Shown: piece after piece, positions 23,852-44,567 of the stretch | Layout: each line of letters begins with the position of its first letter | How positions within the stretch are numbered: the stretch's first letter is position 1 | Source: Selenomonadales bacterium | GTDB lineage: Bacteria; Bacillota; Negativicutes; Sporomusales; UBA7701 | Assembly (NCBI GenBank): GCA_029976065.1 | Contig: JARKNV010000047.1 | Span: 62,001-126,000, forward strand | DNA length: 64,000 nucleotides | Reading direction: 5' to 3' | Notes under the pieces: generated by a model | Database searches by the model: none | What the model was told of the DNA's origin: nothing | Seen by the model: only the letters and a program-made list of their open reading frames with translations | Program-made: the position numbers and the translations under genes

Positions 23852-24544
23852 TCAAAGCCCGCGCAGCCGGTAGCCCACGCTGCGGACCGTCTCGATCGCC
23901 TCCGCCACGGCCGGGTCGGCCGCCAGCTTCAGCCGCAGGTGGCGGATATGGACATCCACCGTGCGGGTATCGCCGGCGTATTCGTACCCCCATACCCGGT
24001 CGAGCAGCTCGTCGCGGGAAAACACCCGGCCGGGATTGGTCAGGAAAAATTTCAGCAACTCGTGCTCCTTCGGGGTCAGCGCCAGCTTCTCCCTGCCCAG
24101 GAACGCCTCATACCTGACGAGGTTCATGCGCAGGCCGCCGAACACCAGCTCCTCCGACTGCTGCGGCTCCTTGTGGCTGCGGCGCAGCACCGCCTTCACC
24201 CGCGCCACCAGCTCACGGGGGCTGAACGGCTTTGCCACGTAGTCGTCGGCGCCCATCTCCAGCCCCAGCACCGTATCGATCTCCTCCGCCTTGGCGGTCA
24301 GCATGATTATCGGTATGCCCGCCGTCGCCGAGCTGGCCTTGAGCAGGCGGCACACCTCCAGGCCGTCCGTTCCCGGCAGCATTATATCGAGCACGACCAG
24401 GTCCGGCCTCGCCCCGCGGACAAGCTCCAGTCCGGCCGGCCCGTCCTCCGCCTCCAGGCAGGCGAAGCCCTCCTTCTCCAGGTTGTACCTCACCAGTTCG
24501 CGGATATTCGCTTCGTCGTCGACAACAACAATCGTCCCTTTCAT
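23852..24544 (-). CDS. PhoP/PhoB-like OmpR-family response regulator
   Basis: The receiver domain has the acidic pair in VVVDDEANIREL, the phosphorylated Asp in LVVLDIMLPGTDG near residue 54 and the Lys in YVAKPFSPREL near 105. The winged-helix effector domain contains YEYAGDTRTVDVHIRHLRLKL, very close to PhoP/PhoB regulators. No histidine kinase is adjacent. Three PHO-type promoters occur at 41.5-44.6 kb, so it is a candidate PhoP for them, though that link is only inference. An ATG two codons upstream is an alternative start. Confidence 0.88.
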   Translation of the reverse strand: MKGTIVVVDDEANIRELVRYNLEKEGFACLEAEDGPAGLELVRGARPDLVVLDIMLPGTDGLEVCRLLKASSATAGIPIIMLTAKAEEIDTVLGLEMGADDYVAKPFSPRELVARVKAVLRRSHKEPQQSEELVFGGLRMNLVRYEAFLGREKLALTPKEHELLKFFLTNPGRVFSRDELLDRVWGYEYAGDTRTVDVHIRHLRLKLAADPAVAEAIETVRSVGYRLRGL

Positions 24545-39460: not shown

Positions 39461-39497
39461 AAGCCCCACCCGCTTGCCTCCGGGTGGGGCTATTATT
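39461..39497. terminator. Terminator of the glycosyltransferase-phospholipase operon
   Basis: AGCCCCACCC and GGGTGGGGCT arms follow the phospholipase stop at 39583; on the minus strand the stem is followed by TTTTG. Confidence 0.75.
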
Positions 39498-39582
39498 CTT
39501 TGCTTTCACTTCCGCAAACAGCAAAAGCCAGTAACGGCGCCTTCGCCGCTGCCGGCTTTCTTTCATTGATGCTTGCACATTC

Positions 39583-40326
39583 TCAGGCGGCAACCCTGTA
39601 CTTCTCGGCGGCAGCCGTCATATCTACGCCGGCCTTGACCGCCTCGTTGGCAAAATGCCACAGCAGCCCGGCAGTAGTCTGCTGCGCCAGCGGCAGCAGG
39701 ATTTCCGTAGCCTTATGGTATAAGGCGCCGTCCTCCGCCAGTTTAACCGCATCGAAATAATCGGCGGCCACGGTCGCGTTGGCGACAAGCAGCGAACAGG
39801 CTGCCCGCCCCTCGCCGTAAACGCCGCCACTATCTACCGCATAGCCGCCGAAGCGCTTCTCCACCCAGGCCTCGTATTGCTTGTGCCCGTCGAGCAGCTT
39901 CGCCCGGGCGTGATGAGGCACGCACACATCCTGCACCAGATGGGCGGCCGCGCCGAGCAGGAACGCCGCCCTGCGCAGCTCCATCCTTCGCAGGGCGAAC
40001 AGAGCCATGCGGTAATAGACCGCGAACTGCTGGCGGGCGCTGGCAAAATGCCACAGCCCCTTGCCTGTAGTCGGTTCGAAGTAATGATGCACGTTCTTCC
40101 ACCCCTGATCAGCCCAGTAAACGCCGCAATCCAGCTCCTTCCCGAACAGCTGCAGAAAATCCGCGTAACGGGTAAACCCGTCGCTGCGGAGGATTTGCAG
40201 GCCCTGGCGGTTGCAAAATTCGTGCGTGATCCCGGGGCGGTCGAGCATGCCCTGCAGCGGGGAAACGGCGGTCAGCAACAGGTTCAGGCATACTTCCGAC
40301 GCACTGGTTCTTCCGGTGGTGTTCAT
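39583..40326 (-). CDS. Cytoplasmic zinc-dependent phospholipase C-like protein
   Basis: The 247-residue protein belongs to the zinc-dependent phospholipase C / P1 nuclease fold. Probable zinc ligands match the known order: H35, D67 or D73, H80-H81, H129-x3-D133, H139, and H148-x3-E152. The N-terminal Trp ligand of secreted enzymes is missing. There is no signal peptide, and AAGGAGG fixes the start, so the protein should act inside the cell. It is 30 bp downstream of a glycolipid-type glycosyltransferase under a PHO box. A role releasing diacylglycerol from membrane phospholipid is a reasoned inference; hydrolysis of another phosphodiester is possible. Confidence 0.75.
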   Translation of the reverse strand: MNTTGRTSASEVCLNLLLTAVSPLQGMLDRPGITHEFCNRQGLQILRSDGFTRYADFLQLFGKELDCGVYWADQGWKNVHHYFEPTTGKGLWHFASARQQFAVYYRMALFALRRMELRRAAFLLGAAAHLVQDVCVPHHARAKLLDGHKQYEAWVEKRFGGYAVDSGGVYGEGRAACSLLVANATVAADYFDAVKLAEDGALYHKATEILLPLAQQTTAGLLWHFANEAVKAGVDMTAAAEKYRVAA

Positions 40327-40356
40327 GCTTTCCTCCTTGACGCCAAGTGATTGGTC

Positions 40357-41475
40357 TCAGCCCGCCGGACTGACGCGTCGCGCCAGCAGGCCGCCGCCGA
40401 TTACGGCGGCGGCATCCGCCGCGGCGTGGGGGCGGCCGACAGCCGCCGCCCGCGCCCGCAATTCCTCGAGCCTGGCCGGTTGCGCCAGCAGCCGGGCCGC
40501 GATACGGCCGAGGCTGGCCGCGTCGGCCGCCCGCACGGCCGCACCCCGCCGCACAAGATAAGCGGCGTTATCCTCCTCCTGGCCGGGAAGCGGGCTGTAC
40601 AGCAGCAGCGGTATTCCGACGGCCAGCGCCTCGCTGCACGTCAGCGCCCCCGGTTTGGTTATCAGCAGAGAGGCTGCGGCCATCAGCTCATGAATCCTAT
40701 CGGTGAAGCCCACTACCGTTATCCGGTGCGGCGAAGCGGCGGCCGTGGCCGCTAGCCTTTGCCGGAGAGCATCGTTCCCCCCCGCCGCGACGGTGATATC
40801 CAGCCGCCTGCCCGCGGCCGCCAGGGCGGCCAAAGCCTCCTCCACGGCGCCAAGCCCCAGGCCGCCGCCCATGATCAGGACGGAAGGCTGGCCGTCGCTG
40901 CGGCGGCGGTTTTGGCCGGCGAAGCCGGCGACGATCGGGATGCCGGTGGCGTGAACGCGTTCGGCGGGTATGCCGAGCGCCGTCAGCGCCGCCTTCATCT
41001 CCTGGCTGGCGACGAAATACATGTCCACTTCCCGGTGGACCCACAGGCGGTGCACGGCAAAATCCGTCAGCACGGCCGCCAGGGGCAGGGACATGCGCCG
41101 GCCGCGGCGCAGCGAGGCGGCGGCGCAGCACGGAAAGGGATGGGTGAAGACGGCGATGTCCGGCCGGTGCTCCGCCACCATGGCCAGCAGTTTCCTTCTC
41201 ATAACGAGGGCGGTCAGATCGCTCAGCCCGGCCCCCGGCAAAGGCCCCTGCGACCAGCGGTACAGTTGGTCGTAGGCAGCCGGGAAAACCTCGAGCATTT
41301 TCAGGTAAGTATCCTTGACAAAACGGCTGGCGGCATCCCCGTCGTCGAGGAAATCGGCGACCACCGCCCGCGCTGCGAACCGTCCGTCAAGCAGCGCGTC
41401 GCGAACGGCGTTCGCCGCCCGCGTATGCCCCGAGCCCACCGAGGCGGTAACAATCAGCGCCTTTGCATCGTCGAT
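40357..41475 (-). CDS. MGDG synthase/UgtP-type diacylglycerol glycosyltransferase
   Basis: The N-terminal domain (ALIVTASVGSGHTRAA) is the MGDG-synthase acceptor domain. Its middle matches UgtP: LAAVLTDFAVHRLWVHREVD and RVHATGIPI. The C-terminal GT-B donor domain has MGGGLGLGAVEEAL and ITKPGALTCSEALAVGIPLL. It should transfer a sugar from a UDP-sugar to diacylglycerol at the inner membrane face. No ATG, GTG or TTG start includes the first beta strand. An ATC at 41475 stands 9 bp behind AAGGAAGGGG and gives a full domain, so it is the proposed start; the GTG at 41439 would delete the strand. Confidence 0.85.
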   Translation of the reverse strand: MDDAKALIVTASVGSGHTRAANAVRDALLDGRFAARAVVADFLDDGDAASRFVKDTYLKMLEVFPAAYDQLYRWSQGPLPGAGLSDLTALVMRRKLLAMVAEHRPDIAVFTHPFPCCAAASLRRGRRMSLPLAAVLTDFAVHRLWVHREVDMYFVASQEMKAALTALGIPAERVHATGIPIVAGFAGQNRRRSDGQPSVLIMGGGLGLGAVEEALAALAAAGRRLDITVAAGGNDALRQRLAATAAASPHRITVVGFTDRIHELMAAASLLITKPGALTCSEALAVGIPLLLYSPLPGQEEDNAAYLVRRGAAVRAADAASLGRIAARLLAQPARLEELRARAAAVGRPHAAADAAAVIGGGLLARRVSPAG

Positions 41476-41507
41476 GGCGGTAGCCCCCCTTCCTTTCTCT
41501 CACCTTC

Positions 41508-41561
41508 ATTGTAGCAGGCCATAATTACCGGGCTGTTAAGGCAAGTTTAAGGATGCGTTAA
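41508..41561 (-). promoter_or_regulatory. PHO box and -10 of the glycosyltransferase-phospholipase operon
   Basis: Three TTAACA-like hexamers on the minus strand (plus-strand TGTTAA 41534-39, GTTTAA 41545-50, CGTTAA 41556-61) repeat exactly every 11 bp. A -10 box TACAAT (41508-41513) lies 20 bp downstream. This is the PhoP-binding arrangement of Bacillus-type Pho promoters and matches the pstS and pstC promoters nearby. Confidence 0.75.
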
Positions 41562-41582
41562 ATTTTCGGCCGCAAGTACGAA

Positions 41583-41616
41583 AAAAAGCATGCCGGCTGA
41601 TTTAGCAGGCACGCCC
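41583..41616 (-). terminator. Terminator after pstA
   Basis: A GCGTGCC/GGCATGC stem is followed on the minus strand by seven T residues, 15 bp after the pstA stop. It shows that no pstB follows in the transcript. Confidence 0.8.
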
Positions 41617-41630
41617 GGGAAATTCGTCGT

Positions 41631-42545
41631 TCAGCTGTTTGTCCCGCTCAGCCTGCGCTGCAGCAGCCTGCCGGGGATGGTGAACACGAGGTTGAAAATC
41701 AGGATAGTTATCACCAGCAGGGCGCCGATGCCGTTGGCGATCTCGATCCGGTCGGGCACCAGGCCGACGGCCATGACGTACCACATGTGCACAGCCAGCG
41801 TCTCCCCGGCGGCGAGCAGGTTCGGGTCGGGCAGTTGCCGCGACACCGTCGTGCCGGCGGTGAAGATGAGGATGGCCGATTCCCCCAGGGCCCTGCCGGC
41901 CGTCAGCGTCAGGCCGGTTATCATGCCCGGCATGGCCGTCGGCAGCACCACCCGCCAGATAGTCTGCCATTTCGTCGCCCCCAGGGCAAGGCTGGCCTCC
42001 CGGTACTGATGGGGAACGGTCTTTATCGCCTCCTCGGTGACCCTGACCAGCACCGGAATATTCAGCAGGGACAGGGTGAGCGCCCCGCCGATGATGCTGA
42101 AGCCGAGACCGAGAGTATTTACGAAGATAATCATCCCGAACAGGCCGAGCACGATGGAAGGGACGGTCGCCAGGCTCTCGGTGCTCAGGCGGATGATATC
42201 GGTCAGCTTGCTCTGGCCGGCGTATTCGGCCAGATAGACGCCCGCGCCGACCGCCACCGGTATCGAAAAAGCCATGGAAAGGAAGAGGATGTAGAAGGAA
42301 TTGAACAGCTGCGGGCCCACGCCGCCGCCGGCCCGGGTATCGGTGGACATGCCGGTGACGAAGTCCCACGACAGCACCGGCAGCCCCTTATACAGGATGT
42401 AGGTCAAAAAAGCGGCCAGGATGCCGAGGATAACGAGGCCGGACAGCCACAGGCCGAGATTGGCCGCCTGGTCGACGAGCTTGGGGCTGATAAGGCGCTT
42501 GTCTTTCATTACGACAGGCTCACGTTCGACTGCTTCCGCATCCAT
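41631..42545 (-). CDS. pstA: Phosphate ABC transporter permease PstA
   Basis: The 304-residue permease has six membrane segments and family hallmarks: GVGPQLFNSFYILFLSMAFS near residue 77, TVPSIVLGLFGM near 128 and the cytoplasmic loop YREASLALGATKWQTIWRVV near 183. Together with PstC it forms the phosphate channel. The start lies 1 bp from the pstC stop, so the two are co-translated. The usual ATPase gene pstB does not follow. Confidence 0.93.
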   Translation of the reverse strand: MDAEAVEREPVVMKDKRLISPKLVDQAANLGLWLSGLVILGILAAFLTYILYKGLPVLSWDFVTGMSTDTRAGGGVGPQLFNSFYILFLSMAFSIPVAVGAGVYLAEYAGQSKLTDIIRLSTESLATVPSIVLGLFGMIIFVNTLGLGFSIIGGALTLSLLNIPVLVRVTEEAIKTVPHQYREASLALGATKWQTIWRVVLPTAMPGMITGLTLTAGRALGESAILIFTAGTTVSRQLPDPNLLAAGETLAVHMWYVMAVGLVPDRIEIANGIGALLVITILIFNLVFTIPGRLLQRRLSGTNS

Positions 42546-42546
42546 G

Positions 42547-43440
42547 TCAGGCCGTCCTTTCTCCGGCTACCCGCCGGATGACCACGATCATCGCCAGTGA
42601 TATCAGCAACAGGACCAGCGCCATCAGAAACAGCGAATTGCCCCACGCCGAACCGAACGGCGTGTTGCCCATCTCGACGACGATCTCGCTGGTAAGGGTC
42701 GAGGTCGGCATGAACAGCGAACGGGCCAACTGGGGGGTATTGCCGATGACCATCTGCACGGCCATCGTTTCGCCGACCGCCCGCGCCATGGCGAGAATGA
42801 TCGAGGTAAGAATGCCGGGCAGGGCGGCCGGCAGAATAACGCCGGTAATCGTCTGCCAGCGGGTCGCCCCGAGCGCCAGCGACCCCTCTTCCAGGGGGCG
42901 GGGAACGGAACGGATGGCATCCTCCGAAATACTGATGATTGTCGGCAGAATCATGACCGCCAGGATGGCCGACGCCGCCAGCAGGCCGAAGCCGGTGTTG
43001 ACGCCGAACTGCACCCTTATATAAGGTACGAGGATCGTCAGGCCGATAAAGCCGTAGACCACGGAAGGGATGGCCACATAAAGGTCGGTGGCCGGGCGCA
43101 TGACCTCACGGAGCCGCGGCGGAGCGATCTTGGCCATGAAGATGGCGCCCGCCAGTCCCAGCGGCGCGCCCATCAGCACGGCGAGGACGGTGACATATAC
43201 CGAGCCGAGGATGAAACTCAGCGCGCCGAACTTGCCTTCAGTCGGGTCCCATTTGCCGGCAAGGAAGAAATCGGCCGGGCTGACCTCCTTAAAGGTCATC
43301 AGGCCCTGCTGACCGACGAAAATGATGATGGCGGCAATGATAACCGTCAGCAACAGCGCGCTGACGATGAACAAATAGCGCATATAGCGGTCGTAGGCCA
43401 GTTTGAGGTTGTGGTCGCCGGCGTTAACCAATGATGCCAT
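42547..43440 (-). CDS. pstC: Phosphate ABC transporter permease PstC
   Basis: The 297-residue permease shows six membrane segments, AIPSVVYGFIGL near residue 128 and the loop PLEEGSLALGATRWQTITGVI near 182. The ATG at 43440 has GGGGGAG 8 bp upstream; the ATG 12 codons earlier lacks a ribosome site. It is the first gene of a pstCA operon with its own PHO promoter, separated from pstS by a terminator. Confidence 0.93.
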   Translation of the reverse strand: MASLVNAGDHNLKLAYDRYMRYLFIVSALLLTVIIAAIIIFVGQQGLMTFKEVSPADFFLAGKWDPTEGKFGALSFILGSVYVTVLAVLMGAPLGLAGAIFMAKIAPPRLREVMRPATDLYVAIPSVVYGFIGLTILVPYIRVQFGVNTGFGLLAASAILAVMILPTIISISEDAIRSVPRPLEEGSLALGATRWQTITGVILPAALPGILTSIILAMARAVGETMAVQMVIGNTPQLARSLFMPTSTLTSEIVVEMGNTPFGSAWGNSLFLMALVLLLISLAMIVVIRRVAGERTA

Positions 43441-43480
43441 TTCGTCTTCTCCCCCGGGTTCTTGCTTGTCGTTCATCTTA

Positions 43481-43534
43481 ATTATAAGGATTATCTATTA
43501 GGCGAGTGTTAATGCCATGTTAATTTTTTGTTAA
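43481..43534 (-). promoter_or_regulatory. PHO box and -10 of pstCA
   Basis: Three perfect TTAACA hexamers on the minus strand (plus-strand TGTTAA at 43507, 43518 and 43529) repeat every 11 bp. A perfect TATAAT lies at 43481-43486, 20 bp downstream. This gives pstCA an independent phosphate-starvation promoter. Confidence 0.85.
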
Positions 43535-43601: not shown

Positions 43602-44462
43602 TTACTTGGGCATCTTGGTAACCGGCACGAAGCCCTGCTTCTCGGCGTACTTCTCCTGGAACTCCTTGCTGGTCGCATAGGCGATAAACGCTTTCACCGC
43701 GCCGGTCGGTTCGCCTTTGGTGTACATGCGGCCGAAGGTGAAGACCGGGTATTTGCCGCTGGTCACGTTGTCGAGCGAGAACTTAACGCCGTTATAAGCC
43801 AGGCCCTTTACCGACTGGTCGACATAGGCGGCATCGACGTAGCCGATCGCGCCGGGAGTGGAAGCGATGGCGGCCCGCACGGCCCCGTTGGAATCCTGGA
43901 TGACGGCGTTGTCGGTGAAGGACGCGCTCTTCATCACCACCTCCTGGATGGTGGCGCGGGAGCCGGACGACTTGGCGCGGTGGATGATCGTGATGGCCTG
44001 GTCTTTGCCGCCGACGTCCTTCCAGTTGGTGACCTTGCCGCTGAATACGGCCACGTATTGCTCGGGGGTCAGGCTGTCGACGGTGACGCCGGGGTTGACG
44101 ATGAACACGAAGGGGATGCCGACGAGTTTATGCTCGACGAGACCGGCGCTCTTGAGGCTGTCCTGCAGGCCGACGTCAGAGTTGCCGATGTTGACCGACC
44201 CCGCCGCCACCTGGTTCTGGCCGGTGAACGAGCCGCCGCCGGCGATGTTGACGGTCACTTTCGCGTGCAGCTTCTGGAACTCTTCCTGGGCAGGCTTGAG
44301 CAGCGGCAGCAGCGCCGTCGAGCCCGAAGCGGTCACGGTGCCCTGGATCTCGGCCGCCTGTTTGGGCTGCTCGGACTTGCTCTGGCCGCCGCAGCCGGCC
44401 AGCAGGCCGATGCTAAGGCTAAGTACGATAATAACGGCTAAAATCTTGGAAACGCTCTTCAT
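43602..44462 (-). CDS. pstS: Phosphate-binding lipoprotein PstS
   Basis: The 286-residue binding protein begins with a signal sequence and the lipobox LLAGCGG near residue 20. Phosphate-binding segments are recognisable: TASGSTALLPLLKP, AGGGSFTGQNQV, NIGNSDVG and the RAKSSGSRATI loop. It delivers phosphate to PstCA. The ATG follows AGGAGGG. It is transcribed on its own from a strong PHO promoter, consistent with the higher amounts needed of a binding protein. Confidence 0.95.
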   Translation of the reverse strand: MKSVSKILAVIIVLSLSIGLLAGCGGQSKSEQPKQAAEIQGTVTASGSTALLPLLKPAQEEFQKLHAKVTVNIAGGGSFTGQNQVAAGSVNIGNSDVGLQDSLKSAGLVEHKLVGIPFVFIVNPGVTVDSLTPEQYVAVFSGKVTNWKDVGGKDQAITIIHRAKSSGSRATIQEVVMKSASFTDNAVIQDSNGAVRAAIASTPGAIGYVDAAYVDQSVKGLAYNGVKFSLDNVTSGKYPVFTFGRMYTKGEPTGAVKAFIAYATSKEFQEKYAEKQGFVPVTKMPK

Positions 44463-44501
44463 GATTACCCTCCTAAATTGTTTGTGATTGTCTTCCCCTA
44501 A

Positions 44502-44567
44502 ATTATAACGCCGGCAATACATTCCTTGTGTTATGACAATGTTAACGTTATGTTAGCGAAGTGTTAT
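44502..44567 (-). promoter_or_regulatory. PHO box and -10 of pstS
   Basis: Four TTAACA-like hexamers on the minus strand (plus-strand TGTTAT 44529, TGTTAA 44540, TGTTAG 44551, TGTTAT 44562) repeat every 11 bp. TATAAT at 44502-44507 lies 21 bp downstream. Confidence 0.85.

Follow-up and report, generated by a model that had tools for sequence, protein, structure and literature searches.

Organization of the locus

The 64-kb stretch of DNA analysed here (the window, C30:62001-126000) belongs to the genome of a Selenomonadales bacterium (G000; 3.42 Mb in 82 contigs, 87.9% complete, 6% contamination) and contains a glycosyltransferase gene (GT) that is followed, after an intergenic gap of 30 bp, by a gene for a zinc-dependent phospholipase C family protein (PLC). 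The original prediction, made from the letters of the window, had proposed that these two genes, hereafter the pair, form a phosphate-controlled operon for membrane-lipid remodelling. Its assignment of the genes as a UgtP/monogalactosyldiacylglycerol (MGDG)-synthase-type glycosyltransferase and a zinc phospholipase C-like protein is borne out by profile searches, and the short distance between them is confirmed. The pair sits immediately downstream of pstS-pstC-pstA, which the prediction did not mention, with pair and pst genes all on the minus strand (Table 1). Beyond PLC lie TrkH and TrkA-type genes.

The pair looks like a transcription unit of its own, since a hairpin with a T7 tract divides it from pstA. 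Read-through from pstA as the sole promoter is unlikely: this hairpin and its T-tract intervene, and the PHO-like box described below accompanies the pair away from pstA, too. An assembly artefact is likewise unlikely, as genome G003 shows the same order behind pstSCA. The terminator said to close the pair is likely, not certain. The hairpin past PLC is indeed strong (-27.8 kcal/mol, z -4.8), but its minus-strand T-tract is short (TTTTG), and the consensus terminator scan calls it a terminator on the plus strand only.

Table 1. Features of the pair and of the adjoining pst genes in the window, with EAL-type genes from other loci.
Feature	Position	Strand	Basis or remark
pstS	43602..44522	-	TIGR02136 above cut-off
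pstC	42547..43476	-	TIGR02138 above cut-off
pstA	41631..42545	-	TIGR00974 above cut-off
Hairpin with T7 tract, interval between pstA and the pair's promoter	~41580..41615	-	absent from consensus terminator scan, stem interrupted
PHO-like box of the pair: three TTAACA-like hexamers, 11-bp steps	41534..41561	-	repeat scan; recurs in relatives
-10 box TACAAT of the pair	41508..41513	-	20 bp behind last hexamer
GT, diacylglycerol glycosyltransferase-like, likely ATC start	~40357..41475	-	PF06925 and Glyco_tran_28_C
PLC, zinc-dependent phospholipase C family, no signal peptide	39583..40326	-	PF00882
Strong hairpin past PLC, likely terminator	39462..39491		short T-tract on minus strand
PHO-like box ahead of pstC, 18/18, -10 at 20 bp	43507..43534	-	repeat scan
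PHO-like box ahead of pstS, 16/18, -10 at 21 bp	44529..44556	-	repeat scan
EAL-type genes near PLC or phoP	L038:6631-7944, L102:7496-8776, L034:14608-16440		no Pfam check
EAL-type genes near PLC or phoP	L138:8724-11051, L155:495-1766, L164:4458-5732		Pfam-checked

Conservation of the pair

A search of 300 genomes of the class identified PLC in 55, and 53 PLC loci were fetched from 49 of these. The relatives include Anaerospora hongkongensis and Lucifera butyrica (both Negativicutes in the NCBI taxonomy), a Pelosinus metagenome-assembled genome (MAG) and a Bacillota MAG. In 41 of the 53 loci, GT is the gene directly ahead of PLC and shares its strand. The fetched spans contain a pst gene in 25 cases, phoP or phoR in 28 and either in 30; this last count is 26 when L048, L075, L077 and L090 are left aside, whose regulators are 38-41% identical and perhaps belong to other two-component systems. 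The placement of the pair varies: it follows pstSCA or phoP, faces pstSCA, or lies between phoR and pstS. Within the window's genus alone, it stands behind pstSCA in G000 and G003 and behind phoP in G004 and G001. The pair of G004 lies between phoP and an EAL-type gene, and G000 has a phoP-EAL locus that lacks the pair. Given these placements within one genus, the pair and its box seem to have travelled jointly from one phosphate locus to another.

At least two GT copies (E<=1e-30) occur in 48 of the 55 PLC-bearing genomes versus 5 of the 245 others (hand-tabulated; Fisher p 4e-42), with neither counts nor p adjusted for kinship or for genome size. PLC is missing from the sister genome G002, which has two GT copies, and the four PLC-bearing members of the genus have three.

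A PHO-type promoter

The repeats ahead of the pair read TTAACG-catcc-TTAAAC-ttgcc-TTAACA and score 15/18, with p 0.005, the lowest value attainable with the 200 dinucleotide shuffles used; the three TTAACA-like repeats and the -10 box had been described correctly. When both strands of the window were scanned, sites of at least 15/18 were found at three places only, ahead of pstS, pstC and GT, and their distances to the -10 box are 21, 20 and 20 bp, respectively. The consensus scan missed the pair's promoter, which is without a -35 hexamer. The perfect box and -10 between pstS and pstC suggest that pstC, too, owns a PHO promoter.

The same layout recurs in the relatives. GT upstream regions score at least 15/18 in 24 of 41 cases at a period of 11, as opposed to none or one of 41 at each of ten other periods (7-10 and 12-17); for pstS, the corresponding numbers are 21 of 23 and zero. 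No other repeat period in the range from 7 to 17 stands out. Tested against dinucleotide shuffles, GT regions attain p<=0.01 in 28 of 43 cases (27 of 41 without L064 and L069, where GT does not precede PLC), and among 36 GTs made non-redundant at 80% identity, 22 score at least 15 and 17 have the 20-bp spacing. The sequence TANNNT lies exactly 20 bp past the last box in 19 of the 30 GT promoters that score at least 14, versus 0-4 of 30 at other distances between 10 and 35 bp. It lies at 20 bp in 19 of 23 pstS promoters and at 21 bp in the other four, and at 20 bp in five of six PLC genes in loci without GT. These are plain counts of TANNNT per distance; a method that chose a -10 box was set aside, as its ties favoured 20 bp.

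The position of PLC provides an internal control. A box (p<=0.01) stands directly ahead of PLC in 8 of the 12 loci without a preceding GT, and in none of the 41 with one. A further control covered the regions upstream of 726 mechanically called open reading frames in these loci, 89 of which score at least 15, and was set aside because the pst, GT and PLC genes are themselves in this set, along with other phosphate-neighbourhood genes and antisense frames. We therefore used the shuffles, the other periods and the comparison with PLC as second gene as controls.

In Bacillus, PhoP boxes consist of TTAACA-like repeats in 11-bp steps. Direct repeats of 11 bp at a fixed distance to the -10 box are found at the pair just as they are at pst in the same genomes, and by its sequence the promoter thus follows the grammar of the Bacillus boxes, calibrated on pst. 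It differs from the Bacillus PhoP regulon in its putative targets, which are lipid enzymes. The search for the same pair behind PHO boxes in other Negativicutes, suggested with the original prediction, has returned it in relatives; among these is the cultured species Anaerospora hongkongensis (G115, locus L054), where the pair has a perfect 18/18 box. Both PHO control and a link between the two genes, which had been postulated from the window, gain comparative evidence from the period of 11, the -10 spacing, the pairing and the pst/pho linkage. It is very probable that the pair is under PHO control, and the comparison supports a functional coupling of its two members.

The window genome encodes a PhoP homologue. 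One PhoP-like regulator is located within the window itself (23861-24544) and is 75% identical to the phoP preceding the pair in G004; a closer one (85%) is found on contig C81.

The phospholipase C family protein

PF00882 (Zn_dep_PLPC) is the sole Pfam family found in PLC (51.6 bits, cut-off 26.8), and it is matched by 52 of 52 aligned members at E<=0.001; no NCBIfam model matches at that threshold. A profile built from 52 PLC relatives retrieves Bacillus cereus PC-PLC (E 5e-18), Listeria PLC and clostridial alpha-toxins, and there is no S1/P1 nuclease among its sequence matches at E<=0.01. A second, weaker PF00882 match exists elsewhere in the window genome (L002, G000:C12; 25.6 bits against the cut-off of 26.8).

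PC-PLC has nine zinc-ligand positions, the N-terminal Trp among them. Eight of these are kept in the window protein (H35, D73, H81, H129, D133, H139, H148 and E152), in line with the original statement that nearly all zinc ligands are present, and the eight are retained in all 53 sequences, bar one that is gapped at two positions. A candidate replacement for the missing Trp is D29, which is D in 49 of the 53 sequences, E in two, N in one and a gap in one, and which falls in a region where the structural model is not confident. Six residues fewer than in PC-PLC make up the loop that joins the second ligand to the third, and this shortening would favour a head group different from choline.

The lack of a signal peptide, likewise part of the original description, is consistent with the hydropathy profile. 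The top 15-residue value within the first 40 residues is 1.41 for the window protein, and the best N-terminal value has a median of 1.45 (0.59-1.95) for the 53 PLCs as compared with 2.47 (2.11-3.08) for 23 PstS proteins. In the alignment, the first His is often preceded by a short hydrophobic segment containing SPLQ, which could contact the membrane.

The window protein itself gave a weak structural model, and the Anaerospora orthologue was therefore modelled instead (predicted local distance difference test, pLDDT, 72; predicted template modelling score, pTM, 0.74; five rows). This model matches PC-PLC with E 2.6e-6 and a template modelling (TM) score of ~0.6. Reading the protein as a nuclease was rejected, as S1 nucleases appear among the fold matches of this orthologue only at E 0.56 and worse.

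PLC thus shares family, predicted fold and eight zinc ligands with the secreted zinc phospholipases C of PF00882, such as Bacillus cereus PC-PLC, Listeria PLC and clostridial alpha-toxin. It differs from them in that it has neither a signal peptide nor the N-terminal Trp, and in its shorter head-group loop, its PHO-type promoter and its glycosyltransferase partner.

The glycosyltransferase

GT contains the domains MGDG_synth (PF06925, E 4e-31) and Glyco_tran_28_C (PF04101, E 7e-12), both above their cut-offs; the general Glycos_transf_1 profile matches much more weakly (E 1e-6). Among solved structures, it best matches a processive diacylglycerol beta-glucosyltransferase (PDB code 9wde, E 8e-41) and plant MGD1 (PDB code 4wyi, E 3e-23), with MurG far behind the diacylglycerol glycosyltransferases. 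This likeness to UgtP/YpfP and to plant MGDG synthase suggests diacylglycerol as the acceptor. The UgtP equivalog model NF010135, however, gives 244.8 bits against a cut-off of 500, so that GT appears UgtP-like in kind but other than the UgtP equivalog. It is further set apart from UgtP/YpfP by being an extra genomic copy, linked to PLC and placed behind a PHO-type promoter. A midpoint-rooted tree, which carries no support values, puts every PLC-linked GT except that of L050 on one side; the C63 paralogue of the window genome and the GT of L170 from outside the class join them there. The C63 paralogue is without a box (score 10).

Translation of GT likely starts at an ATC codon (41473-41475) behind a strong ribosome site. 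Neither in the window genome nor in G004 is there an in-frame ATG, GTG or TTG that would preserve the first strand of the protein. In the related loci L038, L039 and L040, the start is ATC in G004 and G001 and ATT in G003, and in G001 a GTG follows at the next codon. Such a conserved weak start may restrain GT synthesis.

Neighbouring genes

Genes of the EAL type (cyclic-di-GMP phosphodiesterase) are repeatedly found close to PLC or phoP, within the class and beyond it (Table 1). Directly upstream of pstS, the window carries a phage-type integrase gene (PF00589, 44770-45912). The Anaerospora locus has an open frame between PLC and pstS (L034:8686-9150), a possible gene, in which a short repeat occurs many times.

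A proposed route from phospholipid to glycolipid

We consider it probable that the pair is a phosphate-starvation operon for membrane-lipid remodelling, which would convert phospholipid into diacylglycerol and diacylglycerol into glycolipid. When phosphate falls, phosphorylated PhoP would bind the three direct repeats, which occupy the position of a -35 element, and transcription would be initiated at the -10 box, 20 bp further along, as the resemblance to the pst promoters suggests. PLC, which would represent a cytoplasmic branch of the PC-PLC family, is expected from its family, fold and zinc site to remove the phosphorylated head group of the cell's own phosphatidylethanolamine or phosphatidylglycerol at the inner leaflet, leaving diacylglycerol and a reusable phosphate ester. 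GT would then transfer a hexose from a UDP-sugar onto the diacylglycerol so released, a step predicted from its homology to diacylglycerol glucosyltransferase and MGDG synthase, and the resulting phosphate-free glycolipid would take the phospholipid's place.

Algae and plants, too, swap phospholipid for glycolipid when phosphate is low. For Proteobacteria, the literature describes a manganese-dependent metallophosphoesterase, PlcP, and a glycosyltransferase of family 4 (GT4), Agt (PMC8231724), whose genes lie together behind Pho boxes and make MGDG and glucuronic acid diacylglycerol (GADG) (PMC4796936, PMC8528852, PMC8231724). The likeness to the pair consists in a phospholipase C and a diacylglycerol glycosyltransferase jointly placed behind a Pho box, with the same proposed chemistry; the differences are a PF00882 zinc phospholipase C, an MGDG-synthase/GT28-type glycosyltransferase, a TTAACA box with 11-bp steps and a Negativicute host. 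Neither gene of the pair has the features of a PlcP-type metallophosphoesterase or a GT4-type Agt, a statement that refers to the pair and not to the rest of the genome, which was not otherwise searched for the two. The original prediction had already placed the phospholipase in a family unrelated to PlcP, and the family comparison agrees with this and extends it to the glycosyltransferase. Judged by its families, the pair resembles PlcP-Agt in its proposed working and is not a member of that system, as other families would act at both steps. An exchange based on a zinc phospholipase C in Negativicutes is not described among the full-text literature matches listed, most subscription journals lying outside their scope.

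Several findings weigh against this route. The sequence of GT does not reveal its acceptor. The ninth ligand position of PLC, the N-terminal Trp, is absent and the metal site is thereby altered, and the model of the window protein itself is poor (pLDDT 55), with PC-PLC as top match but a TM score of just 0.2-0.4. No GT precedes PLC in 12 of the 53 loci. Seventeen of the 41 GT promoters score below 15; these belong mostly to distant relatives, and several distant loci have no convincing box. The genomes are related, and the counts are therefore not independent; moreover, PLC-bearing genomes tend to be large, and the surplus of GT copies may partly track that.

The same applies to the loci outside the class. 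Among 398 genomes of the phylum, a profile search detected PLC relatives in 49, the window genome being one of them. PLC stands mostly alone there: a co-directional GT adjoins it in 4 of 50 loci (L144, L163, L170 and L174, with PLC first in all but L170), and a divergent GT in one (L173). A PHO-like site (p<=0.01) is found ahead of PLC in 9 of 49 cases, including the pairs L163 and L174, with just two sites of at least 15/18, and ahead of none of the eight GTs of this set, two of which are paralogues from the window genome. Genes for pst are near PLC in L135, L136, L140 and L142. A Pfam scan of ten neighbours of these PLCs found no MGDG-synthase-type glycosyltransferase; it returned one GT2, three EAL proteins and other genes. 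These counts imply that the link of PLC to phosphate is wider than the class, and that its pairing with GT is weaker.

Alternative explanations

The best of the alternatives, which we nonetheless regard as unlikely, is that the pair serves phosphate salvage only. PLC would recover phosphate, GT would just dispose of the diacylglycerol, and any lipid replacement would be incidental. The boxes that PLC has of its own where no GT stands upstream, and the scarcity of co-directional GT neighbours outside the class, would both be expected in that case. The tight pairing of GT and PLC within the class argues against it, however, as does the excess of GT copies in PLC-bearing genomes.

It is rather improbable that the pair effects a PHO-controlled envelope remodelling in which the glycolipid is not a bulk substitute but provides a surface polymer or the outer membrane with an anchor or precursor. 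Bacillus UgtP also makes lipoteichoic-acid anchors, and the UgtP-like character of GT would be compatible with such a role. A dedicated PLC would be superfluous for an anchor, though, and no polymer gene was recognised by eye beside the pair in the four fully listed loci, the other loci not having been systematically annotated.

Very improbable, finally, is that the PLC-family protein is no working phospholipase but a regulator, a lipid-binding protein or another phosphate-ester hydrolase, with GT using another diacylglycerol source or acceptor: the missing Trp and the shortened loop past the second ligand could be taken in this sense, but the eight ligands are kept across the sequences compared and no S1/P1 nuclease is among the sequence matches.

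Implications

Remodelling of membrane lipids under phosphate starvation is thus the function we favour for the pair. A broader version for anaerobic Bacillota seems evenly poised: there, a branch of the PC-PLC/alpha-toxin family that is cytoplasmic and under PHO control, with the conserved D29 replacing Trp as zinc ligand, and a GT28-type diacylglycerol glycosyltransferase might together remodel lipids when phosphate is scarce, as a second, independently assembled solution to the task of PlcP-Agt and with a widespread intracellular role for the family. The proposal can be tested in a cultured species, Anaerospora hongkongensis. If it is true, two other enzyme families would perform the lipid exchange in a large group of anaerobes that possess an outer membrane, and a simple promoter rule would predict which species exchange their lipids. 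PF00882, whose study has centred on secreted enzymes and toxins, would then gain a role inside the cell.

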